Source of the DNA: a virus
Length of the DNA stretch: 47,692 nucleotides
IMG/VR virus record: IMGVR_UViG_3300046167_000939
Coordinates: 1 to 47,692 of that record
Reading direction: 5' to 3' (one strand)
Below the pieces are notes generated by a model. That model searched no databases. It had not been told where the DNA came from and worked only from the letters and a program-made list of their open reading frames with translations. The position numbers and the translations under genes are program-made. Below, piece after piece: positions 2,123-46,512 of this stretch; the stretch's first letter is position 1; each line of letters begins with the position of its first letter.

Positions 2123-2881
2123 TCACTTATATATATTATTTTTTTTCAAAACATTATAATTATCAACAAAGTTTTGATTAGTAGTTCTGTTTAATATATC
2201 ATATGTTGAAGTTTTACCGTCATCATAATCTTCAAAATTAATTTGTGAAGAGCTATTTTTTACAGTTTCAGCACCATCTGTTGTAGGTGTCATATTCATC
2301 TCAAGGTCTGATGATGATCCACGTATGATAATTTTAATTCTTTTTTGTCCATAACCATTTTGTTTTATACCATGTCTGTTAACAGGTAAATGACCTTTTG
2401 GTGGTGCATCTGAAGTATTTGTTGAAGAATTCATGTTTTTATACATGCTACTTTTTCCAGATGATTTAACAATAACATTTCCACTTATATTGTTTCCATA
2501 TTCTGAAAGTATTGTTTCTTTAATAAAATCTTTAAGACAAGATTCTGATATAATGTTGCCATTCATTTCTTTACCTGCAGATAGACCTATTACCGAAGCT
2601 ATACTATTTCCTAGTCCACCTAAACTTGATATATCTTTTCCTTTTTGAGATAAACTATCTGTTGCGCCTCTGTGATATGAAGTGTGAGCTTTATTTTCTA
2701 TCCCTGCATCATTTTGGTCATAATCATCATTTGATTTATCATAGTCAATTAATCCTGCAAGATTGGCTAAATCTCTAACAGACATTCTTTTTAAATCTAT
2801 TTTTGATATAGAAATATTGTTTTTTTCTATATCATTTTTATAATCACTTTCATCGTAATCAAATTCTCCTTTTGGAAGAAC
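2123..2881 (-). CDS. Scaffold-region protein, 3' part of a +1-shifted gene (function unknown)
   Basis: The frame is open from a stop at 2884 down to 2123. The first Met is at 2785 but has no ribosome-binding site, and coding clearly extends above it: SKIDLKR-MSVRDLANLAGLID matches, across the supposed start, the scaffold segment SPEDLADMTVKDLATAAGLVD. The 32 codons above 2785 (VLPKGEFDYDESDYKND...) have the same acidic style as the rest. The likely true gene starts at 3017 in another frame and shifts +1 near 2870. A helix ISESCLKDFIKETILSEYG resembles those of the small neighbours and carries several Ile/Leu-x-Glu sites. It is probably a prohead core or head-associated protein; this is inference from position and the shared motif. 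Confidence 0.7.
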   Translation of the reverse strand, partial: VLPKGEFDYDESDYKNDIEKNNISISKIDLKRMSVRDLANLAGLIDYDKSNDDYDQNDAGIENKAHTSYHRGATDSLSQKGKDISSLGGLGNSIASVIGLSAGKEMNGNIISESCLKDFIKETILSEYGNNISGNVIVKSSGKSSMYKNMNSSTNTSDAPPKGHLPVNRHGIKQNGYGQKRIKIIIRGSSSDLEMNMTPTTDGAETVKNSSSQINFEDYDDGKTSTYDILNRTTNQNFVDNYNVLKKNNIYK

Positions 2882-3017
2882 TTAAAGCATCACCCATACT
2901 CCAATTACTTCCGATTCCTTTTCCAGGACCTCCGCCTAAAGACGCAATCCCTAATCCAGTTCTTCCGTCATAGTTAAAAGACCCTCCAAAAGAGTTAGGG
3001 TTAGTTGTAGAATTCAT
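2859..3017 (-). CDS. 5' part of the same +1-shifted scaffold-region gene (52 codons)
   Basis: ATG at 3017 opens a 52-codon frame ending at TGA 2861-2859: MNSTTNPNSFGGSFNYDGRT..., then a Gly-rich stretch and SNWSMGDALSSSKRRI. It overlaps by 21 bases the +1 frame that continues to 2123. Together they would make a 298-residue protein. The Gly-rich LGGGPGKGIGS segment echoes LGGLGNSIASVIGLS of the downstream part. It follows the 3033-3602 gene by 15 bases; the Shine-Dalgarno is weak (AAG in the stop region of the previous gene). It could also be a separate tiny gene, but then the downstream half has no start. Confidence 0.6.
   Translation of the reverse strand: MNSTTNPNSFGGSFNYDGRTGLGIASLGGGPGKGIGSNWSMGDALSSSKRRI
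2861..2881 (-). other. Candidate +1 frameshift site (AAAA, then AGGAG, then TGA)
   Basis: The only stretch where both frames are open. In the zero frame the codons are TCC AAA AGG AGA ATT TGA. A Lys tRNA could slip +1 from AAA to AAA on the four-A run (2870-2873), giving SSSKGEFDYDES. A Shine-Dalgarno-like AGGAG lies just before ATT TGA, reminiscent of the RF2 (prfB) frameshift signal. A one-base insertion error is the alternative. Confidence 0.5.
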
Positions 3018-4408: not shown

Positions 4409-4996
4409 TTAAATTACCTCTGGTGAAATATTATCACCTAAAAATTTTTCAACAACACTTTCAAATTCTTTTCGATCTATAACAGTTAGACCTGCTCTCA
4501 ATTCAGGTGTTATTGCTGCAGTATCTTTTAAGTATAAATTAACACATCTTAGTCGTAAAGGATAAGTTTCTTTATTAGCTGCAACATTTATTTTGTTTAT
4601 GTCATTAGCTGAATCTGAGAAACTAAAAAATATATCAACACTATGAGCTTTAGTTATTATTTGAATAAAGTTTGTAATTTTTGGTAAAACAACCTTTTTA
4701 ACTACCGAAAATAAATCAATATTATTATTTTGTTTAAAATTTGTTATAACTTTTTCACCTGCTTCAATAGTATTATTATTGTTATTATCCTTGAAAATAT
4801 CTGTGTCGGGTATTTTGCTGTTTGTAGTAACTGCGTCAGCATCACCAACAGTTCCTACTTCTAACCCATCCGATTTTCTAATTATATGTCTAGTAATAGT
4901 TAAATCTTCAAAGCTCTTAATATATGGTATTGCACTAATTTGATATTCTGGTGTAAAATTGTGTCCAACTGATCTTGGAATATTTGATATTGCCAT
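4409..4996 (-). CDS. Small beta-type virion protein, paralogue A
   Basis: 195 aa starting MAISNIPRSVGHNFTPEYQI. The ATG at 4996 follows TGGAGG by ten bases, and its A is shared with the previous stop (TAATG). It is a tandem paralogue of the gene just upstream: both share the N-terminal 26 residues almost exactly, a central LPKIT..IQ strand, RCVNLY and a C-terminal AGLT.IDRKEF..VVE.FL. This copy carries an extra Asn-rich insert of about 60 residues. Predicted all-beta and soluble; perhaps a capsid decoration or neck-region protein, but I do not recognise a named family. Confidence 0.8.
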   Translation of the reverse strand: MAISNIPRSVGHNFTPEYQISAIPYIKSFEDLTITRHIIRKSDGLEVGTVGDADAVTTNSKIPDTDIFKDNNNNNTIEAGEKVITNFKQNNNIDLFSVVKKVVLPKITNFIQIITKAHSVDIFFSFSDSANDINKINVAANKETYPLRLRCVNLYLKDTAAITPELRAGLTVIDRKEFESVVEKFLGDNISPEVI

Positions 4997-5094
4997 TATG
5001 GTTGTGCCTCCAAAAAAGTTTCAACAACATCTATAAATTCTTTTCGATCTATTGAAGTTAAACCTGCAACAATTTCTAGCTCCTTACCATCATC
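4996..5094 (-). CDS. 3' part of +1-shifted small virion gene, paralogue B
   Basis: After the zero-frame stop at 5092-5090, the +1 frame reads DGKELEIVAGLTSIDRKEF, then a tail ending FLEAQP and TAA at 4998-4996. This matches the C-terminal 30 residues of the neighbouring paralogue (ELRAGLTVIDRKEFESVVEKFL). No start codon with a ribosome-binding site exists for it. Its stop overlaps the next ATG as TAATG, the coupling used elsewhere in this operon, so this frame is evidently the natural end of the gene. Confidence 0.8.
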   Translation of the reverse strand, partial: DDGKELEIVAGLTSIDRKEFIDVVETFLEAQP

Positions 5095-5099
5095 GATCA
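5087..5099 (-). other. Candidate +1 frameshift site (GAT GAT CGA TGA)
   Basis: Zero frame: AAT GAT GAT CGA TGA. The +1 frame continues GAT GAT GGT AAG. A shift at or just before the stop, after the rare Arg codon CGA, restores the paralogous sequence. Unlike the other sites there is no homopolymer here; the context is a GATGAT repeat with an extra C. Confidence 0.6.
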
Positions 5100-5410
5100 T
5101 CATTGAAATATAAATTAACACATCTAATATCAAGAGGAAAGGTCCTATCTGTATTTAATACAATTCCATTTTTCCCAGATTGAGCGTCTGTTTTAGAAAA
5201 ATATACACTTAAAGCTGCAGCTGCTTTGAATTGAATCCATTGAGTTATTTTAGGAAGTTCTACGACATAAACATTATCGTTGTTAACAATGAGTTGTGTA
5301 CCATTATCGTATGTATTTATTACACCAGATCTTATATATGGTATTGCACTAATTTGATATTCTGGTGTAAAATTGTGTCCAACTGATCCTGGAATATTTG
5401 ATATTGCCAT
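5090..5410 (-). CDS. 5' part of small beta-type virion protein, paralogue B
   Basis: Starts at ATG 5410 (MAISNIPGSVGHNFTPEYQ). This start is fixed by paralogy, by GGAG eight bases upstream, and by the TAATG overlap with the protease gene; a GTG three codons earlier is less likely. The zero frame stops after RCVNLYFNDDR, about 30 residues short of its paralogue. The missing residues are present in the +1 frame (4996-5094), giving a predicted full product of 138 aa. Function as for the paralogue: probable beta-rich virion protein, family unknown. Confidence 0.8.
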   Translation of the reverse strand: MAISNIPGSVGHNFTPEYQISAIPYIRSGVINTYDNGTQLIVNNDNVYVVELPKITQWIQFKAAAALSVYFSKTDAQSGKNGIVLNTDRTFPLDIRCVNLYFNDDR

Positions 5411-6012
5411 TATTTCCACTCCATTATGTCATTAAAGATTCTATCAATTCTATCAGATTTATTAAATACATTATTAATAAATTGTGATGATATTTCTTTT
5501 CCTTCTTTCATCATAAAAGCACCAGGTGTAGAAGGTTCACTTACAAAATCCCAACATATAAGTTGAAAGTCGTCTTGAACTATCTGCATGTCTCCTTGTG
5601 ATCTAGTACTTCCTACACCTCTAGAAGATATACCAAGTGTTACACCACTTTCAACAAGTGATTGTAATATTTTTCCACTAGGTGTGTTGAGAATTTCTAC
5701 AATACCGTAAACTATATTGCCTTCCATATACGCTTCTTTTATATTATGTGAAGCATTTTTAAGTTCAACAACAGAAGAGTCTGGATGATCGAGTTCACCT
5801 AATGCTCTGTTTTCTTTAATAAATTTTTGATAATTTCTTATTTCTCTCTCTAGAATATTTTTTGGGTATATACGACCATTCTGATTAAGAGTTTCAGCTT
5901 TTTGAAGAATACCTTTCATAATCAAAGGTTGACCTAGATTCTTTTGTTCTTTAATTATTTTCGGGTCGTATTCAAAGTTAACCCATTCTGTAATAAGTCT
6001 TTGTGCACTCAT
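5410..6012 (-). CDS. gp21: Prohead core protease, T4 gp21-like
   Basis: Serine protease that matures the prohead by cutting scaffold, core and capsid proteins, then itself. 200 aa, close to T4 gp21 (212). Seen: LNQNGRIYPKNIL (42-54), GELDHP with the presumed catalytic His76, SGVTLGISSRGVGS with presumed Ser129 or Ser130, and CWDFVSEPSTPGAFM with Asp155. These are the hallmark blocks of phage prohead proteases of the T4 type. ATG 6012 is preceded by AGGAG. It lies between the portal-side head gene and the scaffold-side genes, as in T4 (20-67-68-21-22-23). Confidence 0.95.
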   Translation of the reverse strand: MSAQRLITEWVNFEYDPKIIKEQKNLGQPLIMKGILQKAETLNQNGRIYPKNILEREIRNYQKFIKENRALGELDHPDSSVVELKNASHNIKEAYMEGNIVYGIVEILNTPSGKILQSLVESGVTLGISSRGVGSTRSQGDMQIVQDDFQLICWDFVSEPSTPGAFMMKEGKEISSQFINNVFNKSDRIDRIFNDIMEWK

Positions 6013-6013
6013 T

Positions 6014-6310
6014 TTAATCTCCTAATATTTCTTCTTTAAGTTTACCAATTGTTAAAAATCTTTGAAGATTTTCTTTTGACATATTACTACAGTCAAGACT
6101 TAATATGTTACTTTTAACATTATTGTATTTTTCTAAAAGAATTTTATTATTACAATCTTTAATATATTTTTCTAATAGATTTATACTTGAAGATTTTATA
6201 AATTTGTACTTTTCTTGCAAAGACTTTTCATCATCTTTCATAAAAAAAGTAATTGTTTCTCTTTGGATATTATTTAGTTTCGAATTGTACTTTTTTGTTA
6301 AACATTTCAT
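6014..6310 (-). CDS. 3' part of +1-shifted conserved head-region gene
   Basis: Helical, Lys-rich. The nominal Met at 6310 (MKCLTKKYNSK) has no ribosome-binding site and lies inside the upstream ORF. Joining the frames at the A6 run (6291-6296) gives MNEMFNKKYNSKLNNIQRET, continuing smoothly; from memory, proteins of this type carry an FNxKY...L...Q block in this place. The +1 frame ends at 6014, two bases before the protease ATG. I therefore treat it as the C-terminal third of a single 277-residue protein. Confidence 0.75.
   Translation of the reverse strand: MKCLTKKYNSKLNNIQRETITFFMKDDEKSLQEKYKFIKSSSINLLEKYIKDCNNKILLEKYNNVKSNILSLDCSNMSKENLQRFLTIGKLKEEILGD
6270..6297 (-). other. Candidate +1 frameshift site (A6 run)
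   Basis: Zero frame AAC AAA AAA GTA; the +1 continuation is AAC AAA AAG TAC AAT. The six-A run at 6291-6296 allows one-base slippage, with the Lys tRNA re-pairing on AAA or AAG. The zero-frame stop TAA is at 6272-6270. Removing one A restores one continuous reading frame. Confidence 0.6.
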
Positions 6311-6845
6311 TCATTATTTTATAAGTTAGTTTGTCAACTTTTTTTGGAACAAAATTTTCTTGTATAACTTCTTTTTTACTAATTAAATTTTCATGTAGTT
6401 TTACTTCATACTCAGTGATAATATCAAAACTAGGTGTATCACTTCTCCACTCATTTAATAAAGTTTGTATTGTAGCATATCTCCTAAAGTCTTTAACTTT
6501 TTCTTCAAAAATAATACCTTTACCAAAAGAATAATTTAAATCTTTTATAAGAAATGATTTTTCTTCTTCTAATTTTTTATTTTCAAACATATGATTACAT
6601 GCTTTTTTTGCTTCTTTAATTATTGATGTAGCAAGTGTCTCTGAAATGTTTTGAGTTTCTGATAGTGCTTTGAAAAGCTTATACTCTTTATATAATTGAG
6701 AATTTTTTTTAAAATGATTCTTAATTATATTAATTGCTTTTTCGGCGTTTTGATTATCATTCTCCATTAGACTCTTACAAACAAAATTAATTATTTGTTC
6801 ATATATTATTCCAATGTTTCTTTTTTTATTATGATTCTTCGCCAT
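6270..6845 (-). CDS. 5' part of conserved head-region protein (T4 67/68 position)
   Basis: Starts MAKNHNKKRNIGIIYEQIIN at 6845: AAGGA lies eight bases upstream, inside the portal gene's end. The earlier in-frame start (6878) would overlap the portal gene more and lacks this signal. Helical, charged, no membrane segment. The zero frame ends KKVQFETK at 6270, while the natural continuation is in the +1 frame to 6014. It occupies the place of the T4 prohead core genes 67/68, between portal and protease, but shows no sequence I can match to them. The function is probably in head assembly, inferred from order. Confidence 0.78.
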   Translation of the reverse strand: MAKNHNKKRNIGIIYEQIINFVCKSLMENDNQNAEKAINIIKNHFKKNSQLYKEYKLFKALSETQNISETLATSIIKEAKKACNHMFENKKLEEEKSFLIKDLNYSFGKGIIFEEKVKDFRRYATIQTLLNEWRSDTPSFDIITEYEVKLHENLISKKEVIQENFVPKKVDKLTYKIMNEMFNKKVQFETK

Positions 6846-8862
6846 TATCAATTTCCTTATTTTCAAACATATTATCATCTATAATTATATCATAGTCATC
6901 GTTATTTTCTTTTAATAGTTTATTTGTATTAATATTTAAAGAATTAGACATTTTCTCTAGATCTTTTGACATTCTATGTGAAATCTGTTTATCTATGAAA
7001 TTTTTAATCACTGGGCTTTGTGGCATAACACTATCAATAAACAAATTAGAATATGAAGGTGATTCTAATCCTTTTTTACTTAAAGCTCCACCACCTATTT
7101 CATCTTTTTTAAATGGATTGTTTCCATCAAAATTAATAGGATTATCAGATTTTCTATTTCTTGTAAACTTTCCTTTTTTAACTTTTGGACTTGGTTTTAC
7201 AGGATTATTATTGTCTGGTTTTTTGACGTCACTAGCATCGTAAATATCATTAGAGTCAAATTCACTTATTAAATCATCATATTCTGATAGATCGTCTTCA
7301 GACATTATTTTTCCTTTTTTAATTTCACCTGAAAATAACCCGCCTGAATCTTCTTCAGAATCACTACTTTGACTCGAACTTGCAATATCATCCATAGGAC
7401 TTAATTCCTTTTCAGAGTCTTCATTATCTTCGTCACCAAATATATTATTTTTTGATTCTGGTAGTTGAAGAACTTCAAGTTCCATTTCTCTAATTTTATC
7501 TTTATCTCTTCCTTTTTCTATTCTAGTTATTTCATCATCATTAAGCTCAATAATATGTTTTCTAATCCATTCTCTATCAACAAATCCTTCAGGTGCTTGT
7601 GCAGCAATTTCAAATTTAGTTCTAATTATCTCTAGTTTTTGTTGTTGAGCAATACTCGAAGGATTACATAATTTCAATTGAAAGTCTAATAGAGATTCAT
7701 CTGTGTATCCATGTGAGTATAAATGAATCATTGCTACTTTATTTAACTCAGAAATAATTGTTTTTTGTATTCTCTGGATAGTTCTACTAAATCTTATATC
7801 TTCTTGAGCTAAAGTTGCTTTTGCACCAATATCTTCATCATAACCTAAATAAGCTTTTGGTATTTTAAGAGCAGCAAATAGTTTCTTTTGAATATATTCA
7901 ACATCTTCTATTGCTGTTGTATTTGATCCACCAGCTAATGTCTCGATTCTAGTTCCACTTTCACCACCTCTAACTGGCAAGAAATAATCTTCGTCAACTG
8001 ATAATGGATTATATCTTAAGTCAACTTGACCAGTATTTTTATCTACAACAGCGTTTCTTTTTAAAGAAGTCTGAGCTTGCTCTAAATAGTCTGCAATGTT
8101 TTCAGGTGGAATATTACCTACGTCTATGTAGAAAACCCTTCTTTCAGGAGACCTAATGACTCTATAGACTAACATAGCATCTTCAATAAGTATTAATTGT
8201 CTCCAAACTCTTCTCGCACCTTCTAATACTGATGAACCATAAGGTAAAAAAGCATCACTTCCGAGGAGTCTAAAGTGAGAAACTTGCCAATTTTCTAAAA
8301 CTCTATTTCCTTGTGTTACCCATCTAAATCTTACAGCACCTGGGTCATTTGAATCAAATCCCTCTTCTCTTTCAATTTCAGATATTGGTATTGGAAAACA
8401 ATTTACAACACCGTATTCAGGATGTATATCATTAAACAAAAAGAAATCTCCATATTTACAAAGATTTCTAACCCACATAACTAAATTAAAATCAACATTA
8501 AGAACATCATAAAAAAGTTCATCTAATATTTTTTTAACCATTTTATTTTCAGAATAAATATTTAGTATTGTTCCTTCTACATCAGGAGAAACACATTCTT
8601 CAGCGTAAATATCTAAAGCTGAAGATATTTCAGGTGTTCCTTCCATTTCTGAAAAGTCTGAGTATCTTGACATTCTATCATATGAACCATAAGCTCTAAG
8701 TGTACTATTATAAACATCACTATGAGCCTTCTTAAAAACTTCTAAAGAAGATTTTGAATATGATCCTTTTTTTTCTAAATTCTTGATTTTTCTTTTAACT
8801 ACGGGACCTGATCTAAACAGACTAGTAAGTTTTTTAAATAAATTATTATTATTATCTGGCAT
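6829..8862 (-). CDS. gp20: Portal vertex protein, T4 gp20-like
   Basis: Dodecameric ring at the DNA-entry vertex, binding terminase and nucleating head assembly. 677 aa (T4 gp20 is 524). The N-terminal two thirds carry the family blocks: SRYSDFSEMEGTPEISSALD, LCKYGDFFLF, RSPERRVFYIDVGNIP, and IPKAYLGYDEDIGAKATLAQ with EDIRFSRTIQRIQ. From about residue 470 there is a long acidic, Ser/Asp-rich tail with Lys-rich patches, an extension beyond the usual core. Directly follows terminase (TAA then ATG, touching), and the next gene starts inside its 3' end. Confidence 0.94.
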   Translation of the reverse strand: MPDNNNNLFKKLTSLFRSGPVVKRKIKNLEKKGSYSKSSLEVFKKAHSDVYNSTLRAYGSYDRMSRYSDFSEMEGTPEISSALDIYAEECVSPDVEGTILNIYSENKMVKKILDELFYDVLNVDFNLVMWVRNLCKYGDFFLFNDIHPEYGVVNCFPIPISEIEREEGFDSNDPGAVRFRWVTQGNRVLENWQVSHFRLLGSDAFLPYGSSVLEGARRVWRQLILIEDAMLVYRVIRSPERRVFYIDVGNIPPENIADYLEQAQTSLKRNAVVDKNTGQVDLRYNPLSVDEDYFLPVRGGESGTRIETLAGGSNTTAIEDVEYIQKKLFAALKIPKAYLGYDEDIGAKATLAQEDIRFSRTIQRIQKTIISELNKVAMIHLYSHGYTDESLLDFQLKLCNPSSIAQQQKLEIIRTKFEIAAQAPEGFVDREWIRKHIIELNDDEITRIEKGRDKDKIREMELEVLQLPESKNNIFGDEDNEDSEKELSPMDDIASSSQSSDSEEDSGGLFSGEIKKGKIMSEDDLSEYDDLISEFDSNDIYDASDVKKPDNNNPVKPSPKVKKGKFTRNRKSDNPINFDGNNPFKKDEIGGGALSKKGLESPSYSNLFIDSVMPQSPVIKNFIDKQISHRMSKDLEKMSNSLNINTNKLLKENNDDYDIIIDDNMFENKEIDNGEES

Positions 8863-10494
8863 TTATTTTCCTATCAACCAACTTAAATCACCAAACGGAT
8901 CATTAGATTTTAACTTTGAATTTTTATTAGTAAATTTACTTTGAGGCATAAAAACAGGTATGAAAGGGTTCACACTATTTTGATTGTTATTATAGAAAGG
9001 AGAAACAATTGTGTTATTAATATTTGTATTATTTACTTCCATCCCTTTAAGAATAGCATCTGCTTGTTGCATTTGAGTAACATTATAAGTATTTGAATTA
9101 CTATCAGCTAACCAGCATCCAATTGCTATAGACATAACAAGATCATCGTTATATCCTTTCATAGCAGTTATTTTTTTACCATTCCATATAAAAGTTTTTA
9201 ATTCAGAATACAGTCTGTGTGAATACGTTTTTATTCTACCATTTCTTAAACATTCTTCGAGATTTGCAAGTATTTTATCTCTACTTTCTTTACTTGTAGT
9301 AAAACCAGCTTTAGAAATATTACTTCCTTCTCCATAAAGATATTCATATTTTTCTCTTTCTTTAGAAAAATATATGTTTTTATATCCAAGATCTGCTAGT
9401 TTTACAAGCATTGTATAACCATATGCATTGTTCTCAGGACAAACCATAGAATTGTTAAACCTTTTAGCAATATCATACACTAAAGACGCAAATTGATCTG
9501 GTGGAATTTTACCTTTAAATTCGCATGAAACTGATAAATTGTTATTATCTATAACATGGAAAGTTGAATAATCTCCACTATCTCCTCTTGCAATATCAGC
9601 AGATAGTGTGTAAGTATTATTTTCAATAGGATATTCCCAATACCAAACATTGTTTCCTGGACCACTTTTTTCTATAGGATGTTTTGATAATATTCTAACT
9701 TTTTCAAGAACATCATTTGTTATAAATGTATCACCTGAAGATGCAAAATCACATAATAATTCTTGTGATATTTGTTTCTTAGACATATTTTTGGTTTCTT
9801 TATTAAACCAATTATCATCTCTTTCTGGATGAACATCCCACATTAATTTAATAGAATTAAATTCGTTTTCTTTTCTTTCTGCTTTAGAATATATTTCGTG
9901 ATATTGTCCACCAACACCATTTGGTGTAGATAAAATAATAGCTCTACCACCTGTAGACAAGGTAGGATAAAGACCCATCCACAATTCATCAAAGTTCCTT
10001 ACAAAAGCTGCCTCGTCTACAATTAATAAAGAAAGAGCTTCTGATCTACCTGCATCTTCAGATGTAGGAACAGCTTTTATTTGTGATCCATTAGAAAATT
10101 CTATTTGTTGTTTATTGTTTGCTGTAATGATTGGTACTAATAACCATTTTGGCATGCTTTTTATATAAGTCTTTACTTTTCTAATAAAATTTTGTGCGAC
10201 TGCAAGTTTTGTTGCAATAATGAGTATATTTTTATCTTTATAAAAAACAGATTGCCAAACTGCATATGCAGCAACAAGTGTAGATAATCCTAACTGTCTG
10301 GATTTTAAAATTATATTAAATCTATGATCATTAAAATCTTTAACACAATCATCTTGAAAATCAAAAGTATTAAAATTAATAAGGCCTTTAAGTGGATGCT
10401 GTATTTTTAAGTATTTATTCATGAAATACACTGGATCTTTTCCACACTTAATAATTTCAGCTATTTGACCATTTTTAGACCTTGTATTTACCAT
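8863..10494 (-). CDS. gp17: Terminase large subunit, T4 gp17-like
   Basis: DNA-packaging motor: ATPase that drives DNA through the portal plus headful nuclease. 543 aa (T4 gp17 is 610). Seen: Walker A SRQLGLST (65-72), Walker B LLIVDEAAF (156-164, Asp160/Glu161), coupling motif STPNG (189-193), then the RNase H-like nuclease with SADIARGDSGDYS (Asp300), PENNAYG (Glu354) and GYNDDLVMS (Asp450/Asp451). All catalytic positions are present. It lies next to the portal. No small terminase subunit (gp16) is recognisable; the short gene just upstream is a possible but unproven candidate. Confidence 0.97.
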   Translation of the reverse strand: MVNTRSKNGQIAEIIKCGKDPVYFMNKYLKIQHPLKGLINFNTFDFQDDCVKDFNDHRFNIILKSRQLGLSTLVAAYAVWQSVFYKDKNILIIATKLAVAQNFIRKVKTYIKSMPKWLLVPIITANNKQQIEFSNGSQIKAVPTSEDAGRSEALSLLIVDEAAFVRNFDELWMGLYPTLSTGGRAIILSTPNGVGGQYHEIYSKAERKENEFNSIKLMWDVHPERDDNWFNKETKNMSKKQISQELLCDFASSGDTFITNDVLEKVRILSKHPIEKSGPGNNVWYWEYPIENNTYTLSADIARGDSGDYSTFHVIDNNNLSVSCEFKGKIPPDQFASLVYDIAKRFNNSMVCPENNAYGYTMLVKLADLGYKNIYFSKEREKYEYLYGEGSNISKAGFTTSKESRDKILANLEECLRNGRIKTYSHRLYSELKTFIWNGKKITAMKGYNDDLVMSIAIGCWLADSNSNTYNVTQMQQADAILKGMEVNNTNINNTIVSPFYNNNQNSVNPFIPVFMPQSKFTNKNSKLKSNDPFGDLSWLIGK

Positions 10495-10496
10495 TT

Positions 10497-10871
10497 TTAT
10501 TTAATCTCGTATACATATTTACATGAAAATTTTAATTTTCTAAATGGACTATATGGACTAACAGTTAAAGTTTCAAAATTATCACAGTCACTAATCTTTT
10601 TTGATATTAAAGATCTTTTAGAATTATCTTTAAAATCTTTTTTTATAGATTTTAATCGTGATTTAATCATTTCATCAGCTTCTTTTTTTAAATTAACAAT
10701 TTGATGTTGAAGATCTGATTCTCTAGAAGAGTTTAAAATAGTTATATATGTAATTGACATGCAACAATCACCTTCTAGTTTTGAAATAGTTTTTCTAGCA
10801 CCATCATTAGAAGTGTAATTATATACATTATCAATAGAATTACTTAAACTATTTAACATTTCATATTCCAT
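10497..10871 (-). CDS. Unrecognised 124-aa protein upstream of terminase
   Basis: Starts MEYEMLNSLSNSIDNVYNY at 10871, with AAGGA seven bases upstream. A helical middle (about residues 50-90, alternating charged and hydrophobic) and a Cys-containing beta-like C-terminus (SCKYVYEIK). It ends two bases before the terminase ATG, so it is translationally linked. Size and position would fit a small terminase subunit, but I see no DNA-binding motif that proves it. Confidence 0.75.
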   Translation of the reverse strand: MEYEMLNSLSNSIDNVYNYTSNDGARKTISKLEGDCCMSITYITILNSSRESDLQHQIVNLKKEADEMIKSRLKSIKKDFKDNSKRSLISKKISDCDNFETLTVSPYSPFRKLKFSCKYVYEIK

Positions 10872-10911
10872 AATGAATTCCTTTATTTTATTATTTAATT
10901 ATTACATAATA

Positions 10912-11169
10912 TTAATATTTATTAGGTCGCCAGCCTTTATCCCATTTTTCTTTATTAGGATAATAATATAAATCATAACATAATTTACATATACTTTTAT
11001 CTTTAGCACTTTCAACATCATCAACAGTAGAAATTAATTCTTTACAATTATTGCAATCTAATGATATAGGGTTATCATTTATTGGTCTAACAAATTTTAT
11101 ATTATTAATAAAAGATTCTTCTTCGTTTTTATCAATTTTATTCCATTTTTTATTAAGTATGGTAGACAT
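10912..11169 (-). CDS. Small Cys4 (zinc-ribbon-like) protein
   Basis: 85 aa. Two CxxC pairs (CNNCKELI and CKLCYDLYYYPN) separated by about 19 residues suggest a zinc ribbon; it ends NKEKWDKGWRPNKY. The start at 11169 overlaps the end of the Mre11-Rad50 fusion gene by 17 bases; AAAGG lies 11 bases upstream. Possibly a DNA- or protein-binding accessory to the recombination genes it follows; no function recognised. Confidence 0.8.
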   Translation of the reverse strand: MSTILNKKWNKIDKNEEESFINNIKFVRPINDNPISLDCNNCKELISTVDDVESAKDKSICKLCYDLYYYPNKEKWDKGWRPNKY

Positions 11170-27821: not shown

Positions 27822-29144
27822 TTACTTATATTCTAGTTTAATATTTGGCTTATGTAAATCGCTACTTAAAACATTAAACTCAGAAGAGTTTGTTTTTAAA
27901 TCTAAACTCTGATTAACATAATTATTTATGAGTATTTTTTTATATAAAGAGTTGTCTTTTTTATTGTTTATAATAATACAAAATCTTTCTAAAATTCTTC
28001 TAACAAATAATTTGTTTCCTCTTCCCCATATTTTTCTATAATCAGAATATATATTATCATTTATTTCTAATATATCATTGTTCATATTAGATAAATAAAG
28101 ATTTTTCTGTTCAATAAAAAATGGTATATTTTTAAAGATAAAAGAAGAGCCGGGTTTAAGCAAAAATCTATTTTCTTTTGTATTATTCATACCATTAGAA
28201 GAATTAAAATCTTTAGGGTTAAACTCAAAAGTTATCATTTTTGATATATTAAATGTATAATTTTTAATATCTTTATTTGCAAACAAATCTTTGATATCAA
28301 AAATAAAATTTAAACCTTCTTTCTTTTTTGAAAACATCCTGATGTTGTTTCTGTTAGAATCATAATAAGATTTGAAAGTAAATTTATTATAATATTCGTT
28401 ATTTTCGTTAGTGATATTATAAAGTTCTTGTTCTATATTAAATCTACTAACCGTATTAATATCTCCAATGTCTTCTGTTTGGTCTTCATCATCTATTTCC
28501 TGGATATTTGTTTGATTATTAACAAAAAAAACTTTGTTACTTAGTTTATCTTTGTTTAAGTTAAAAATACTGTTGATTTTTTTGTTTATATTATTACTTG
28601 AAGTATTTGTAAACAAAGAATTTCTTAGTAAATTATCAATTTTAGAATATTCTCCAGGTAATATTTCATTTAAAAATTTTGATGTTTCTTCTTTTTTATT
28701 GTCGTCAATATTATTTTCACTTACAAGTGATGAATGAGTCCCTTTAGGCATTGTTAATGATCTAGTTATAATTTTTGTATTTCTAAAATTTCCCATATTA
28801 GATATTGGTATTTTAATTTTTTTAAGATCATCACTAATCAAGTCAGACAATCTAAAATTAAAATCTTTTTGTAACACATCGTTACTACCAATAGGATTAT
28901 AACTTATACTAAATGACATAAATGTATTTTCTGTGACTTCTTGAGAAAGATAATCATTAGAAACAGTATCGTAAGATAAATTATTTAAAAGAGTTTTATT
29001 TGTATCTATGAGACTGGGGTTAAAGTCTAATTCAAGTCCACTTGGTATAAACTTTGGTCTACTAAACGATTTATTAATAAGATCATTAAATATTCTTGAG
29101 TTTGAGTTACCATTAGATTGAATTTCCTTTTGTATTATTTTCTT
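27822..29144 (-). CDS. Tail-region protein with unresolved start (open frame extends well above first Met)
   Basis: The first Met is at 28919, but it has no Shine-Dalgarno, and the same frame stays open for 75 more codons to 29144 with convincing protein sequence (NSNSRIFNDLINKSFSRPKF, IPSGLELDFNPSLIDTNKTL). No ATG, GTG or TTG occurs in that extension. Two explanations fit: the upstream gene shifts +1 near its stop at 29113, making one 900-residue protein; or translation begins at the out-of-frame ATG at 29113 (TAATG) and a base is missing. Content: hydrophilic, beta-rich, with ELYNITNENNEYYNKFTFKS and a Phe-rich SFIFKNIPFFIEQKN block. Function unknown; baseplate or tail from context. Confidence 0.75.
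   Translation of the reverse strand, partial: KKIIQKEIQSNGNSNSRIFNDLINKSFSRPKFIPSGLELDFNPSLIDTNKTLLNNLSYDTVSNDYLSQEVTENTFMSFSISYNPIGSNDVLQKDFNFRLSDLISDDLKKIKIPISNMGNFRNTKIITRSLTMPKGTHSSLVSENNIDDNKKEETSKFLNEILPGEYSKIDNLLRNSLFTNTSSNNINKKINSIFNLNKDKLSNKVFFVNNQTNIQEIDDEDQTEDIGDINTVSRFNIEQELYNITNENNEYYNKFTFKSYYDSNRNNIRMFSKKKEGLNFIFDIKDLFANKDIKNYTFNISKMITFEFNPKDFNSSNGMNNTKENRFLLKPGSSFIFKNIPFFIEQKNLYLSNMNNDILEINDNIYSDYRKIWGRGNKLFVRRILERFCIIINNKKDNSLYKKILINNYVNQSLDLKTNSSEFNVLSSDLHKPNIKLEYK
29113..29131 (-). other. Possible +1 frameshift site or lost start (AAAAGG ... TAATGG)
   Basis: Zero frame ACA AAA GGA AAT TCA ATC TAA. Both the zero frame and the +1 frame of the following gene are open across 29113-29144. 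AAAAGGA also looks like an ordinary Shine-Dalgarno for the ATG at 29113, which however leads to a stop after 28 codons in a non-coding-looking frame. This site is the least certain of the set. Confidence 0.35.
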
Positions 29145-30522
29145 CTACATTTATCATACTTTCAACTTGTGTTGTATTAATAGGGTATATTTCAACATTT
29201 TCATATTTTACAATAATTCTATCAGGTTCAGGTGGAGGAATGGTAATTTGTGCTACTCTACTTCTTCTAATATAATAAACATTACTTGACAAACTAGAAT
29301 ATATTGACTCTAAAGAAAAATTTCCATTTATAGAAGTAATAGAATAGTCATTTTTAAAATTATTTGTTGTATAAAGTTTATCAATTAACGAAGCTTTATT
29401 TTCTTTTGAATTTGCGAATTGATTATTTATTTTAAAATTTTTACTACTAACATCATCAGGTATTAAAGCCAAATCAACCTCTAAAAAATTTATCATATGA
29501 TGAGGAGTCCCACGCTCAGTTCCTGGACTGATTTGAATTTTATTTCTAAAAATTTCTTTTATTATTGTATCTTTATGTTTTTGATAAAAAGTATTATAAT
29601 ATTCAATTATTTTTTCTCTAGATATAAATTTTTCTTTTATAAATAAAAAACTTTTATATATAAAACTTATTTCAATACCCAAATCAGTATTACTATTATC
29701 TATAATACTTAAATACATGTTTTTTATTAAATTATTAGAATAATTCTCTAATAGACTATTAGATAAAAAGTTTTCTTCAAATATGTTTTGACTAGAATTG
29801 CTAGGTTTAACATTATAAACTTGATCATTGAAATTTATTTGAATCTCTGCCATTGTTTTACTAAAAGATTCTGAATTTAAAACAACTTCATCAAGTACTA
29901 CTACAGGTCCACCTTCGTAGTCATCATTATAAGAATTAAAAATTATATCAAAACTACTTTCAATTAGATTTTGATTAATATCAATCCTATCATTAATATC
30001 TATAATTTCATAATCAGACAATCTTTTATTATTTGTATTAAATACATAATTTTCAACAATATTTTTATTATCATCTAAAAAATATATCCTGAAAATGTGA
30101 GGCTTTTGAAATCCTGTTGTAGTTGAAGTTCCTGGAAGACCTTCAGAAGGTGAACCATCAAACGCGACTACGTAGTCTGTTATTGAATTTATTGCTTTAG
30201 TCAAACTAACAGGAACAATATATTCTTCATAAGAATCATCGTTACTAAGATTTAAAACTAGTGGTATATTTTCATATCTGTATTGATTTGATATTTTTGG
30301 GTTGTTTGAATTTAAAAATCTATTATTGATTTTGTCTATATTTAAAATATCATATTGCACAAATTTTCCTGTAGAAGACTTCTCAACACACACTTTAATA
30401 TAACTTGCTCTTTTAGAAATAGCTTTACTTTTATTTATTAAAAAAGTAAAGTATAAAAAGTCTTCATCTTTAACAACATCATTATCAACATTAAAATTTT
30501 TAATTATTTCATTTGTATTCAT
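29113..30522 (-). CDS. Tail-region virion protein, 469 aa, unrecognised
   Basis: Starts MNTNEIIKNFNVDNDVVKDE at 30522, overlapping the previous stop as TAATG. Predicted beta-rich with YIKVCVEKSSTGKFVQYDIL and a proline-rich TIPPPEPDRIIVKYENVEIY near the end. No motif recognised. The zero frame ends NTKGNSI at 29113; the following reading frame is +1 relative to it and has no proper start, so the two may be one protein. Part of the contiguous tail operon. Confidence 0.78.
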   Translation of the reverse strand: MNTNEIIKNFNVDNDVVKDEDFLYFTFLINKSKAISKRASYIKVCVEKSSTGKFVQYDILNIDKINNRFLNSNNPKISNQYRYENIPLVLNLSNDDSYEEYIVPVSLTKAINSITDYVVAFDGSPSEGLPGTSTTTGFQKPHIFRIYFLDDNKNIVENYVFNTNNKRLSDYEIIDINDRIDINQNLIESSFDIIFNSYNDDYEGGPVVVLDEVVLNSESFSKTMAEIQINFNDQVYNVKPSNSSQNIFEENFLSNSLLENYSNNLIKNMYLSIIDNSNTDLGIEISFIYKSFLFIKEKFISREKIIEYYNTFYQKHKDTIIKEIFRNKIQISPGTERGTPHHMINFLEVDLALIPDDVSSKNFKINNQFANSKENKASLIDKLYTTNNFKNDYSITSINGNFSLESIYSSLSSNVYYIRRSRVAQITIPPPEPDRIIVKYENVEIYPINTTQVESMINVEENNTKGNSI

Positions 30523-31532
30523 TATTCAACAACCAATGTAAACATATTAACAAAGCTATAGTCATTATTTAAATTAAAATAATATCTCTTATTTTCTTCG
30601 TTTATTTCTTCTTTTAAATTTCTTGTTAAAAATACTTTTCCTATTAAATAAATGTTCTTGAAATTATACTCTTTTGAATCGTAAAATTCACCTAAATGAA
30701 CAAAAGAAAGTTTTGACAAGTTAACAACATTATCAGTCGATGTTACTTTTTTGTGCATCTCAAAAAGATAAACGTCTTCGTCTAACATTTTTTCTTCGTT
30801 AAAAATATATTCTAGTCTATGGATATTACTATCTGTAGAAATTTTATTAATAATATCAATAACAAAGTCTTCTTTATTTGTAAATTGCGGTATTTCATCA
30901 TCAATATTTAAACTTTTAAAAATAATTTCAAATGGTCTATCTAAAAAAATATCTTCATTAAGGAAAAGACTTCCTCCACTAGAAACAGTAGGAGGCATAA
31001 ATTTATTTCTTGTTTTATCAATAAATCGTTTGTCGTTTTTAACGTAATCAATATTGCTTAACAAAGTTTTGTATGATTTAATTGTAGGATAAGATGAAGG
31101 TTTTTGATGAAAGTCGAACTCGTCTTTTTCATCTTTAAAGTCAAAATTAATTTCTCTATTATCGTTTTCTGATTTTAAAACTTTATTGTCTAATAATTTT
31201 AAATCAATTAGATAATCAGATGTTGTTCTGTTCGATTCTTTATTTATAAACAATATGTTATTATCTAATTGATCAAAAGATATAACAGAAGACAACGTAT
31301 ATTCAGGATTAATTATATTATTAACATTTACATCAACTTCAAAAGGTAAATAAGATGAAATATCAGATACTTTAAAGCTTTTTAAAGATTCGTAATCTTC
31401 GTTATAAACAATACTACTATCAGAAAAAGTGTAATATTTTAAATCAAGAGATCCTAAAGATAACTTATCTCTACCAAACTCAGTTAATTTATAATCAATA
31501 AGTCTTTTATCTTTTTCTAGAAAACCTGCCAT
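30522..31532 (-). CDS. Conserved virion structural protein, 336 aa (MAGFLEKDKRLIDYKLTEFG family)
   Basis: Starts MAGFLEKDKRLIDYKLTEFG, followed by RDKLSLGSLDLKYYTFSDSS, a block I recall from structural proteins of large marine phages, distantly echoing the opening of the 20170-20907 protein. Contains KFMPPTVSSGGSLFLNEDIF in the middle. Soluble alpha/beta; no catalytic motif. AAAGGA lies 11 bases upstream of ATG 31532. Role unknown; from context a baseplate or tail component, possibly a paired partner of its paralogue. Confidence 0.82.
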   Translation of the reverse strand: MAGFLEKDKRLIDYKLTEFGRDKLSLGSLDLKYYTFSDSSIVYNEDYESLKSFKVSDISSYLPFEVDVNVNNIINPEYTLSSVISFDQLDNNILFINKESNRTTSDYLIDLKLLDNKVLKSENDNREINFDFKDEKDEFDFHQKPSSYPTIKSYKTLLSNIDYVKNDKRFIDKTRNKFMPPTVSSGGSLFLNEDIFLDRPFEIIFKSLNIDDEIPQFTNKEDFVIDIINKISTDSNIHRLEYIFNEEKMLDEDVYLFEMHKKVTSTDNVVNLSKLSFVHLGEFYDSKEYNFKNIYLIGKVFLTRNLKEEINEENKRYYFNLNNDYSFVNMFTLVVE

Positions 31533-31557
31533 TTAATTATATTCCTTTACTAATATG

Positions 31558-34500
31558 TTAAGTATCTGAAAATATTATTTCACTTGAATTATAATAAGCA
31601 TTTTTATTCGTATTGTAACTTTTAATTAATTCACCTTCTTCTATAGAAAAATCTTCAAACGAAACACAAGAATTAAATTCACCACCTTCAATTCTAGCTG
31701 TAGGGTTTCCAAATGTTCCTAATTTATCTAAAGTAATTTTTATCTCAACTAAGTTTGTATGTAAACTTTCTTCAACAACTTCAGCAGTAACATTTAATTT
31801 AAAATCTATAACATTACTTGGATTACCAATTTGTTTTTGAATTTTATCGTTTATTTGATTAATACTTGAAGCAACTAAGTCTACAAAAGCTCTTTTTTGT
31901 ATTTCTAAATCTGCTGGGTATATTTCATTTGATTTGATAAAAGCGTTGTAAATAGTTGGGTCGACTTCTGTTAATATAACTTTGTTGTTTTCTATTTCAC
32001 TAAATAAATCAGAAACAGAATATCTTGGAGGATCTAATTCATCTATACCTTCACTTGTAATACCTAATGCTGAATCTGTTAACAAATAAATACTTATTGA
32101 ATTTTGACAATTATCAGTAATCTTAAATGTAAGTGAAGATTGACCTGATGTTTTTCCTGTCGTTGAAGACATAATTTTTTCTTTTAGATAGTTTGTGCCT
32201 TTAAATTCGTTAATTTTATTAAAATTAAAAATTAATTTTCCTGATATTTTTGCTGGATTTTTTTGTTTAAAATATCCTGACATGAATCTTTTATTAATAT
32301 TGAAATATTTACTTTTATCAAATTGATGAATTAAAGAATAATATAGCTTATCATTAGGCATTCCAAAATGATATTTGTTAAAATAATGTTTAATTGAATA
32401 TTTTTTACTATTTTCAGTAAAATAATCGTTTTCTGGTAAAGAAGAAGTATATTCACTATGAGGATAATTAACACCTGCTATAGAGCTAACAATATCAGGT
32501 TTACCAAAACTAGGTAGTTCAAAAAAATTACCTAACTTTATTTTATTTTGATTAGAATACTTATTTTTATTTATAAGAAAACCTGATTTTCCTATTATTT
32601 CTCTATCATAAAAATTGTTATCTAAATAACCTAGATTACTTCCAACTTGGTCTACCAATTCTTTTTGAAAATAACCTATTTTTTTTGTATTTTTGTATTG
32701 TTTACTTTCTTTATTTAAAATTATTTTTTTATTCTTATCTTCTTGATAATGTCCTATTAAATGTATTTTAAAGGGGTAATCATTACTAGAACTAATTTTA
32801 ACTAAATCCTCACCTATTCTTATATTATTATTTTCCGGATAGTCTTCTTGACATTCAAAAGAATTACTTAAAGAAATACCTAGAACTAGATTATCACTTG
32901 GTAATAATATATAACTACTTTCTTCATACATTTTTTCATTTAATATAACATTTTTATTGTTTACATCTAAAATGATTTCTTTGTTTGAAGTATTATTTAA
33001 ATTTTCTGCAATTATTGATCTTCCTGATTTTAAAGATAAATTTGTTCTATCACTTGAAGGCTTTTCAGGATATAAATTAAAACTAGTAAACTTTGGAAGA
33101 TTTTTATTTTCATAATAATGTTTAACTGGAGCAACAATTTTAATCGATTCATTAGTATAAATACACTCTGAATCATTTGAAGAATTCAATAAAGAAGATT
33201 GTGATTTGTTGATTAATAAATCAACAGATTTCTCTATTTTTTCTAAGTTTATTATATGATTGTCTGGATTAGATTTACCTGAAGAATAATTTGCAATAGA
33301 AACAGAAGTTATAATATCTCTTTGTTGCGTTTCATAATGTCTTTTATCAATGTTTTGTATGTTATTTTTTTGTATATAATTACTATCATGAACAGAGTCT
33401 CCAAGAACTGTTCCATGTAATTCCATGTCATTAATCTGCGATTGAGTAAAGTTTACATTTTGATCTTTGTTATTAGAAGTAAACACAGTGTCACCTTCGT
33501 AATTAATAGGATCAATATTAATAAAGTTATTACTTCCATAATAAGTCTTTAATGAATTATCTAAATTAGAAGTATTTAATTTTCCTCTTTGATTAATTAA
33601 AAATAAGTTTACAAAGTTTATACAAGGAGTATTTCCTTGTCCATCAAGCAAAGAAACAGACCAATTTGACATTGTAAATTCTAAACAGACTTTTTCAATT
33701 ACAAAAGGTTTTGAAATATAGTCTGACGCTTTTATTATATGTCTATCTTTTGCTGTGTATTTTGAATCAAATGGAAATCCAAAATTACTAATTGGTATTG
33801 TTCCATAAGAAGATTTAATAATATTATCTGAAAGAGACTGATTTGATAAAATATCTTCATATACAGATACACTACTAAAACATATTGGCGAATTCTCAAC
33901 AAAAGAACCAACATCATTTTTATAATCACTTGAAATGTTACCTAAATAATCATGTGGCCCAAAATTATTTTTTATATACTCTGGATTATATAGATAAACA
34001 GTATTACCATTAAAAGTATGATAAGAAGTCCCATCAGGAAATGTAACTTCTCTAGTATTACCTTTTTTACTAAAAGACAGATAAATATCACTATTATTTG
34101 ATTTTTTTAAATCATAATCGATCGTAATTATATTATTTATTTCTGTTTTTTCTAAAACATCATTATCTTCTTTGAAAGTGCATGGCATATCTTCAAGATA
34201 ATTTTCTTTAAGCATTCTATCATAAACATGAGGATTTTGTGTAAAAGTCTGTTGTTCAAATCCAGAAACACCAACTTGTGAATTATTACTATTAATTATT
34301 TCATAAAAAGGATATGTATTAGGAGTATTAACTATTTTAGACTTGTTATAAAAACCAATTTCAGTCAATATGTTATTACTAATATATTTTGACTCTATAC
34401 CAGCTGTTGGTACTATATTTTTTTCTAAAAAATTAATAGTTCTGCTATCATGGAAAAAATATTCTCTTTTATCTAATTTAATGTCTGAGTGGATTAATTC

Positions 34501-34668
34501 ATTATCAAAAAAACTAAAGCTTAACTCTGAGTCTTTTCTTTGTTTGTTAAAAGATTGAGTTACTATTCCTGATTTTATTGTATGATGATTATCATTATGA
34601 TTAACAGACAGACTTGATCCACCAAATTTACTATACCCTATTGAATTAAATTTTGTTCTATACTTCAT
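31558..34668 (-). CDS. Large virion protein, 1036 aa, unrecognised
   Basis: Starts MKYRTKFNSIGYSKFGGSSL at 34668, TAATG-coupled to the upstream gene with GGAAG as ribosome-binding site. Early block SELSFSFFDNELIHSDIKLD and HDSRTINFLEKNIVPTAGIE; a central FVIEKVCLEFTMSNWSVSLL with NFVNLFLINQRG; the C-terminal third contains SSLTFKITDNCQNSISIYLL and a region IQKRAFVDLVASSINQINDK. Mostly beta-rich and Asn/Ser-rich. I do not recognise a family; the size and the neighbours (LamG baseplate-type proteins) suggest a peripheral baseplate or appendage structure. Confidence 0.82.
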   Translation of the reverse strand: MKYRTKFNSIGYSKFGGSSLSVNHNDNHHTIKSGIVTQSFNKQRKDSELSFSFFDNELIHSDIKLDKREYFFHDSRTINFLEKNIVPTAGIESKYISNNILTEIGFYNKSKIVNTPNTYPFYEIINSNNSQVGVSGFEQQTFTQNPHVYDRMLKENYLEDMPCTFKEDNDVLEKTEINNIITIDYDLKKSNNSDIYLSFSKKGNTREVTFPDGTSYHTFNGNTVYLYNPEYIKNNFGPHDYLGNISSDYKNDVGSFVENSPICFSSVSVYEDILSNQSLSDNIIKSSYGTIPISNFGFPFDSKYTAKDRHIIKASDYISKPFVIEKVCLEFTMSNWSVSLLDGQGNTPCINFVNLFLINQRGKLNTSNLDNSLKTYYGSNNFINIDPINYEGDTVFTSNNKDQNVNFTQSQINDMELHGTVLGDSVHDSNYIQKNNIQNIDKRHYETQQRDIITSVSIANYSSGKSNPDNHIINLEKIEKSVDLLINKSQSSLLNSSNDSECIYTNESIKIVAPVKHYYENKNLPKFTSFNLYPEKPSSDRTNLSLKSGRSIIAENLNNTSNKEIILDVNNKNVILNEKMYEESSYILLPSDNLVLGISLSNSFECQEDYPENNNIRIGEDLVKISSSNDYPFKIHLIGHYQEDKNKKIILNKESKQYKNTKKIGYFQKELVDQVGSNLGYLDNNFYDREIIGKSGFLINKNKYSNQNKIKLGNFFELPSFGKPDIVSSIAGVNYPHSEYTSSLPENDYFTENSKKYSIKHYFNKYHFGMPNDKLYYSLIHQFDKSKYFNINKRFMSGYFKQKNPAKISGKLIFNFNKINEFKGTNYLKEKIMSSTTGKTSGQSSLTFKITDNCQNSISIYLLTDSALGITSEGIDELDPPRYSVSDLFSEIENNKVILTEVDPTIYNAFIKSNEIYPADLEIQKRAFVDLVASSINQINDKIQKQIGNPSNVIDFKLNVTAEVVEESLHTNLVEIKITLDKLGTFGNPTARIEGGEFNSCVSFEDFSIEEGELIKSYNTNKNAYYNSSEIIFSDT

Positions 34669-35591: not shown

Positions 35592-35603
35592 TTATAAATC
35601 TTT

Positions 35604-37049
35604 CTATACTTTTTTAATTAAAGAGTTTTCTAAGAACTCTATAGAATCATCATATCTAAATTTGCTATTTTGTCTTCTATAATCTTGATAATTATATAAA
35701 TCTGAGTTTGAAACTGAGATACGACTATCTGAGTTTTTATATTGATACTTATTTCTTTCTAAAATATGTGACTCATATACAAAATTAAATCCTAAATAGT
35801 TAACTCGAGATGGTATTGCTTCATATAATAAGTCTTCTAGAATATTATCAAAATATTTATATACCTGATATAACATATTAAAATTGATTTCTTCTCTCGG
35901 TTTTATTCTCTTAAAGTAATCGTCTCTTAACTTAGAAAAATCTAAATAATCTTGTTCATAAAGATAACTAGAAATTGACAACTTATCAGTAAAATAATCA
36001 TTAATTGATATAAGCTTTGATATATCTTGATTTAAAAAATGAACAGCAGAAAAATCAATGTATAATCTTTGATCGTCATGATATAAATATTCTGGATGGT
36101 GTTGTGAAGAAAAACTTAAATTGTAATTTTTATATTGATCTTTAATTGAGTCACTTTCAAAAGAATTTATATAAATCTTATTAGAATTACTAGGTGAATC
36201 TATTTCATAATTTTGTTTAAAAAGTATCAAATCATCAGCAGAAAATATATTTTCACTATTAATGTTACCGTCTGTAAGAAGATCACTACCTACATAAAGA
36301 TAAGATTTTAAATCTGTTTCATTTTCAACTTTTGATAAATCACTAATATAATTAAATAGTTCATTTGAATCTTGATATTCTTGATTAATATTTTCACTTA
36401 AATCGATATTTATGTAAAGATTATCAACAGACATATTATCTGTTTTTTCTCCAATGAATTGTATATCTTTAGACTTATTTCTTAATATATCATTATGTAA
36501 GTACTTATCATATAATCTAATTTGGCTTATCTTGCCTTGAAAAGAAGTTTCATAAGATAAACCATCAATCTCAATACTTCTTACTGTATCTTTATATTTA
36601 TAATCTCCACATGAAATTTGATAAATATTTGTTTGACCACCAGCATCTTCATAATTTAAAGATGTTTTTATCTTAATATTTTTATTATATGAGTAAGACA
36701 ATTGACCTATTGGAGATACATCAAGCTGATATTCATAAATGTCTTTTGAATCAATATACTTTTTCCTTAAACAAATATAGTATGTATAGCCATTTAATAG
36801 ATTAATATTTTCTATTGTTTCTTTTAGAACTGTATTGTTATTTAAATTTTCAATATTTAAATAAAGATCTAAATCTCCAAAGTCTACTTCTTTATTTTTT
36901 CTATTAAACACAACATTAATATAAGGATTATCATGTTGTCCAGAAATGATAGTTCTGTCTATTCTAAAAAGTGACTGGCTATTATTAAACATTTTAACTT
37001 TTGACTTATCAAAGTTGAAATAAAATTCAAAAGTCCAGTTTTTTTTCAA
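35604..37049 (-). CDS. LamG-like domain, 3' part of a +1-shifted baseplate protein
   Basis: The only available start is TTG at 37049, without a ribosome-binding site, inside the upstream gene. The sequence KNWTFEFYFNFDKSKVKMFN followed by SLFRIDRTI is the beginning of a LamG/concanavalin-type beta sandwich, with SFQGKISQIRLYDKYL as the typical late strand. In phage baseplate-type proteins I know, such a domain follows directly after the 'KGT..SI...' helical block carried by the upstream gene. The two therefore look like one 1182-residue protein split at an A8 run. The C-terminal half is Tyr/Asp-rich. Confidence 0.75.
   Translation of the reverse strand: MKKNWTFEFYFNFDKSKVKMFNNSQSLFRIDRTIISGQHDNPYINVVFNRKNKEVDFGDLDLYLNIENLNNNTVLKETIENINLLNGYTYYICLRKKYIDSKDIYEYQLDVSPIGQLSYSYNKNIKIKTSLNYEDAGGQTNIYQISCGDYKYKDTVRSIEIDGLSYETSFQGKISQIRLYDKYLHNDILRNKSKDIQFIGEKTDNMSVDNLYINIDLSENINQEYQDSNELFNYISDLSKVENETDLKSYLYVGSDLLTDGNINSENIFSADDLILFKQNYEIDSPSNSNKIYINSFESDSIKDQYKNYNLSFSSQHHPEYLYHDDQRLYIDFSAVHFLNQDISKLISINDYFTDKLSISSYLYEQDYLDFSKLRDDYFKRIKPREEINFNMLYQVYKYFDNILEDLLYEAIPSRVNYLGFNFVYESHILERNKYQYKNSDSRISVSNSDLYNYQDYRRQNSKFRYDDSIEFLENSLIKKV
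37027..37047 (-). other. Candidate +1 frameshift site (A8 run)
   Basis: Eight A residues on the coding strand (37039-37046). Zero frame GAA AAA AAA CTG GAC TTT TGA; the +1 frame gives GAA AAA AAC TGG ACT, i.e. E-K-N-W-T-F-E, joining a typical LamG opening. Dropping one A restores a single 1182-codon frame from 39150 to 35604. Confidence 0.5.
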
Positions 37050-40994: not shown

Positions 40995-40998
40995 ATTA

Positions 40999-41775
40999 TT
41001 ATCCACTCACAACTTCAATATCAGATGCATATTTAAGCTGGAATATTCCACCTTTTGGAGGAGATAATATTCCATCTTTATAATTTTCAAATACTGAAAA
41101 GCTGTTATTGTTATATTTTCTATCTAAGTTTTCTAAATCAATTCTGTTTAAGTCGTTATTAGTTTTTGGTCTTATAATTGTCTTAAAATTAGAAGTTATT
41201 GTAAGTACACCAGGAGTGTCTAATACTATTCTAACAATTTTATTAACATTTATAGCTTCCCCAATTTGAAGTTTTTCAAACATCATTAAAGTAAAAATTT
41301 TACTTTGTACTTCTACTATTACATCTTGCTGATCATGATTATTTGATATTTTAATTTTTAAATACAATCCAATATTAAACACATCTGTGTCAATTATATT
41401 AAATGTATCACCAATTATTCTATATTCATTTAAATAATTAGATAAGTTATATTTAAGTGAATCATTTGATTTAACATAAAATCCGTCTTCATCACGACAT
41501 ATTATATAAAGATCTTTTGTAGACTTGGAATATGGATTATCTAATACAGATGATTTACTAATTCTACCAAAGTTTGAAGGCATACTATGTATTCTAGCTA
41601 ACAAATCTTCATGTGTTACAATTCTTGATTGAGCTTTCATTGAAGAAGATATATGACCTCTAAGTTCTTCTAAAGTTAACGCATTTGAACCACCTACCGC
41701 AGATTCATCGTTTAGTACTGAAATTGAATTGATGATAAGATCAACTTGCGCATCGTTCTCATTTGATAAATGGGG
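40999..41775 (-). CDS. gp6: Baseplate wedge gp6-like protein, C-terminal part (+1 frame)
   Basis: The first Met is at 41640, but it lacks a ribosome-binding site and the frame is open to 41775. It carries the most conserved part of the gp6/baseplate-J family: NDESAVGGSNALTLEELRGH, then AQSRIVTHEDLLARIHSMPS with NFGRI. Those residues straddle the nominal start, so 41640 is not the real start. Further on: LYIICRDEDGFY, LNEYRIIGD, and the C-terminal PPKGGIFQLKYASDIEVV. Together with the upstream part the protein would be about 615 aa, near T4 gp6 (660 aa), the wedge protein that clamps neighbouring wedges around the hub. Confidence 0.9.
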   Translation of the reverse strand, partial: PHLSNENDAQVDLIINSISVLNDESAVGGSNALTLEELRGHISSSMKAQSRIVTHEDLLARIHSMPSNFGRISKSSVLDNPYSKSTKDLYIICRDEDGFYVKSNDSLKYNLSNYLNEYRIIGDTFNIIDTDVFNIGLYLKIKISNNHDQQDVIVEVQSKIFTLMMFEKLQIGEAINVNKIVRIVLDTPGVLTITSNFKTIIRPKTNNDLNRIDLENLDRKYNNNSFSVFENYKDGILSPPKGGIFQLKYASDIEVVSG

Positions 41776-41777
41776 GG
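41759..41777 (-). other. Candidate +1 frameshift site in gp6 (C6 run)
   Basis: Six C residues on the coding strand (41772-41777). Zero frame TTC TTC CCC CCA, reaching TGA at 41761-41759. Reading one base further gives CCC CAT TTA TCA AAT and the conserved gp6 continuation. CCC-C is a known +1-slippery proline context for bacterial ribosomes. C runs this long are very rare in the window. Confidence 0.7.
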
Positions 41778-42847: not shown

Positions 42848-42852
42848 TGAAA

Positions 42853-43341: not shown

Positions 43342-43397
43342 TTAAAAATTTCCTAGATTTATAATTAACAAAGATAATTATATAAACTTAAAATAAG

Positions 43398-45278: not shown

Positions 45279-45284
45279 AAATAT

Positions 45285-45665: not shown

Positions 45666-45674
45666 AAATTATCC

Positions 45675-46507: not shown

Positions 46508-46512
46508 AGGGG
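46506..46512 (-). other. Candidate +1 frameshift site (CCC TGA)
   Basis: Zero frame AGC CCC TGA A; sliding Pro tRNA from CCC to CCT and reading GAA next restores the conserved D-S-P-E-I-R-R. A shifty proline codon directly before UGA is the architecture of known +1 recoding sites (RF2 CUU UGA; antizyme UCC UGA). One extra C in the C4 run (46509-46512) is the mundane alternative. Confidence 0.7.

Follow-up and report, generated by a model that had tools for sequence, protein, structure and literature searches.

The head module and the tandem genes A and B

The window, meaning the whole stretch of 47,692 bases of the virus record analysed here, had a G+C content of 25%, and no tRNA genes were found in it. 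PHROG matches were obtained for its genes of the terminase, the portal, and the head maturation protease. Among cultured phages, identity to its terminase reached at most about 40%, the Flavobacterium phages 'immuto' giving the best match. In G001, a related contig of 211 kb, the corresponding capsid gene matched the PHROG of the major head protein. The order of the head genes was T4-like, with two tandem paralogues, B and A, located between the protease and capsid genes. The parts of this pair, with G001 and a near-identical contig, L011, for comparison, are as follows:

5099..5410, minus strand: N-terminal part of copy B; 104 codons match intact relatives, and the open frame continues to a TGA at 5090-5092
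5087..5104, minus strand: break of copy B, AATGATGATCGATGATGG; L011 and G001 are one base shorter here, and frame 0 of the window hits the TGA
4996..5097, minus strand: remainder of copy B, its C-terminal part, in the +1 frame; 33 codons and a TAA stop, with 91% identity to the C-terminus that L011 B has in frame
4409..4996, minus strand: copy A, the intact tandem paralogue of 195 AA; identical to B over the first 77 nt except at one position

Copy B opened at an ATG at 5410 on the minus strand with ATGGCAATATCAAATATTCC, and its frame 0 ended after ...CVNLYFNDDR in the codon pair CGA-TGA. The conserved C-terminus (IDDGKELEIVAGLTSIDRKEF...EAQP) was found past this pair in the +1 frame, which read IDDGKELEIVAGLTSIDRKEFIDVVETFLEAQP and closed at a TAA that overlaps the start codon of paralogue A (TAATG, 4994-4998). 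An earlier note had reported this overlap and had placed AGLTSIDRKEF of copy B in +1 after CGA TGA and AGLTVIDRKEF of paralogue A in frame; the sequence bore out all three statements and their coordinates, and the argument from the paralogue was correct. Its term '+1 break' is also right as arithmetic, the offset in copy B being one extra base modulo 3. Likewise, the homopolymer that it had found to be missing was indeed missing, with no run longer than two bases in GATGATCGATGATGG at the break. An ATGATG in the +1 frame overlapped the frame-0 stop. The 15-base junction occurred once in the window and matched no other IMG/VR contig.

The A/B proteins are a family without a name in T4-like environmental phages, marked by a conserved segment, VGHN(F/Y)xPEYQIS, at the N-terminus and a second, GLTxI...EF, at the C-terminus and carried by environmental phages with T4-like head genes (window 4409-5410; relatives L025-L042). 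Two contigs besides the window contained the tandem pair. There was no confident PHROG or Pfam match for A or B and no sequence match among solved structures, a tblastn search of the 'phages' collection with copy A gave no match, and a scan of bacterial and archaeal genomes for relatives of A and B found none. The AlphaFold model of intact B was strand-rich (pLDDT 74, pTM 0.65), and fold comparison pointed to cupins, carbohydrate-binding modules, and small phage proteins at TM-scores too low to be used for identification. The earlier note's designation of B as a small virion gene is plausible by position, as B is flanked by genes for a gp21-like protease and a gp23-like capsid protein, but was confirmed by no match to a family or fold. 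At the nucleotide level, the first 77 nt of A and B (4920-4996 and 5334-5410) showed the single difference listed above while the rest of the proteins was about 40% identical, and the same stretch was more diverged in G001. The near-identity of these 5' ends suggests recent gene conversion or homogenisation.

Gene B in related contigs

L011 (IMGVR_UViG_3300048536_000741; 6,202 bases) aligned to window positions 4965-11167; the two sequences differed by 13 substitutions and by two indels, each of which breaks a gene in the window but not in L011. In L011, gene B was one open frame of 137 codons from its ATG, and in G001 (74% identical), G003, G004, and G005 gene B or its counterpart was held in a single frame. 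A profile scan of other contigs found 20 complete A/B family members (18 of them distinct, L011 B included; the count leaves out L044, a very distant match, and L043, which is truncated), and all 20 were open from the N- to the C-terminus without a stop. The B of the window was therefore the only broken one among the A/B members compared. Its N-terminal part was 98% identical to the intact B of L011 and 74% identical to that of G001, and because both this part and the +1 peptide (91%) remain so similar to a near-identical contig, the break is not a chance arrangement of unrelated frames. A tandem 7-base duplication (GATGATC/GATGATG) was considered as the origin of the break and rejected, as the alignment showed the window to be only one base longer than L011 and G001.

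The substitutions between the window and L011 were unevenly placed, with 11 of the 13 falling within 5031-5923. Those in B were mostly amino-acid-changing and those in the protease were all silent. This 0.9-kb cluster could be a recombined segment or could represent faster evolution of B. The break itself differed from the L011 sequence by a substitution and one extra base. The haplotype of the window at copy B is thus a real variant of that of L011, and the strains are not exactly the same here. In scans of other contigs for the exact junction and for the haplotype, none was found to share the haplotype of the window.

One-base gene breaks across the window

Comparison of the window with the open frames of G001 revealed seven genes split between frames, near 2,877, 5,098, 6,295, 29,118, 37,040, 41,775, and 46,510, and the offset was identical at all seven, one extra base modulo 3. 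The breaks at 29,118, 37,040, and 41,775 were confirmed by G007 (88% DNA identity) and those at 5,098 and 6,295 by G003 and G005. In the reverse direction, frames of the window compared with G001, G003, G005, and G007 gave no breaks apart from A/B paralogue cross-matches, and the same was true of G001 and G007 compared with each other in both directions. Besides copy B, the broken genes were as follows, where the otherwise identical contig is IMGVR_UViG_3300048536_000809:

2871..2896, minus strand: gene 2123-3011 is broken by one extra base near 2877, with no long run there
6014..6878, minus strand: second broken gene, a 287-AA ORF in L011; in the window, ORFs 6014-6310 and 6270-6878, with T6 in place of T5 near 6295
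29099..29119, minus strand: a gene of 888-893 AA is broken here into the ORFs 29113-30522 and 27822-28919, with one extra base outside any long run
37039..37046, minus strand: T8 run (T7 in the otherwise identical contig), splitting a 1,174-1,185 AA gene
41772..41777, minus strand: G6 run (G5 in the otherwise identical contig), which splits a 615-619 AA gene; no other G/C run of six occurs in the window
46509..46512, minus strand: G4 run (G3 in the otherwise identical contig), which splits a gene of some 100 AA

Aligned to window positions 30,007-47,692, IMGVR_UViG_3300048536_000809 differed by zero substitutions and by exactly three one-base insertions in the window, each of which splits a gene. 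Zero substitutions together with three gene-breaking insertions is the pattern of consensus error and not that of evolution, and in our reading of the alignments this contig is the strongest evidence for error. Where near-identical sequence was available, five indels were counted in 23.9 kb, or 21 per 100 kb. With its seven breaks, and with three insertions over 17.7 kb free of substitutions, the window carries an excess of frame-breaking indels that have no counterpart in near-identical sequence.

The earlier note had called the lack of a base run unusual for a homopolymer-type sequencing error; read as a point against sequencing error, this part of its argument failed. Four of the seven insertions lay in runs of at least four bases (T6, T8, G6, G4), and three (near 2,877, near 29,118, and in copy B) lay outside runs of three or more. 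Since two of the six other gene-breaking insertions thus also lack such a run, its absence at copy B does not set copy B apart and is no argument against error, and the contig with zero substitutions over 17.7 kb lacks all three of the bases inserted there.

Because near-identical copies in other contigs are intact and genes of the window are broken by six further one-base insertions, the most likely cause of the break in copy B is a sequencing or assembly error, and we consider it very probable that it is an insertion in the consensus of this contig rather than a frameshift of biological origin. The break would be due to a single added base at about 5098-5099, within the GAT-rich stretch, and would belong to a set of at least seven single-base insertions that break genes, in an insertion-biased, long-read-like error profile. 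The phage itself would then have an ordinary, unbroken gene B of about 137 codons, located between the gp21-like protease and paralogue A. The extra bases and the intact relatives are plain in the alignments, and the window is presumably a long-read contig. A consensus mixed from two strains is a possible alternative origin of the break, and would likewise make it an artefact.

Two observations count against error at copy B, namely that the site has no long homopolymer and that it lies in the one stretch with true differences from L011. An alternative is a real, strain-specific frameshift, for instance a slip in the GAT-rich stretch, by which B would be cut to 106 AA with paralogue A perhaps compensating. 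Copy B does lie in the only segment polymorphic relative to L011, with five amino acid differences in B and zero in the neighbouring protease, and the tandem paralogue A, with the same conserved ends, is intact. Against this stand the six further one-base insertions that break genes in the contig, of which the zero-substitution contig lacks at least three, and the open frame of every complete A/B family member found elsewhere, and we consider a real mutation unlikely. The preferred reading, an error in the consensus, carries a warning: in a contig with at least seven spurious-looking gene splits, recoding, split genes, and short ORFs should not be taken as biology without the reads, and ORFs called at the six other break sites of the window are fragments of larger genes.

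Recoding and comparison with known systems

The C-terminal peptide of copy B is still conserved, and it could in principle be made purposely, by programmed +1 ribosomal frameshifting at CGA-TGA or by a stop followed by restart on the ATGATG that overlaps it. The codon after CGA is a stop, the kind of slow or absent A-site codon found at known +1 sites such as CCC_UGA, at which tail genes of Listeria phages undergo +1 frameshifting (PMC5009743). Neither a shift nor a restart is needed, however, in L011 or in any complete family member elsewhere, and the frame arrangement was not conserved among relatives, with single frames in L011, G001, G003, G004, and G005. Most frame-breaking indels soon run into a stop codon. 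Shift codons known for +1 frameshifting include CUU, CCC, and UCC, and to our knowledge CGA-TGA is not among the +1 shift sites; judging from the codons, an Arg tRNA at CGA would have no matching pairing to the +1 codon GAU, and inspection of the sequence revealed neither P-site re-pairing nor a known shift codon. Downstream RNA structure did not exceed chance (z = 0.54 relative to shuffles), no Shine-Dalgarno-like element was seen just upstream of the shift point, and the six other breaks were scattered in unrelated sequence contexts. With near-identical and distant relatives intact and no stimulator found in the downstream fold or just upstream, programmed frameshifting was rejected, and we regard it, or a purposeful restart, as extremely improbable. 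We give equally little credence to the related proposal that the extra base is real and that the full B is produced in this strain through +1 recoding or stop-restart, which would yield two forms of a head-module protein.

Compared with the +1 frameshifting of the Listeria phages PSA, A118, and A500 (PMC5009743), copy B is similar in being a phage gene of a structural module with a +1 offset at a stop. It differs in that its offset is not conserved even in a near-identical contig, in lacking CCC or another re-pairing codon, and in showing no stimulatory structure in the downstream fold and no sign of two products. There is a likeness to the T4-like head module (gp17, gp20, gp21, gp23), as the terminase, portal, and protease of the window and the major head protein of G001 match such PHROGs and A and B are located between the protease and capsid genes, the difference being that A and B themselves have no confident PHROG or Pfam family match. 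The breaks in the window can be compared with those of long-read virome assemblies, in which 474 indels per 100 kb were reported for long reads only and 22.78 after short-read polishing, with an excess of insertion errors noted for PacBio subreads (PMC6487183). The window differs in that three of its seven sites lie outside runs of three or more, and the platform of the window is itself presumed; in both cases, however, single-base indels split genes, the gene-breaking cases in the window are all insertions, and its rate of about 21 per 100 kb resembles that of polished long-read assemblies.
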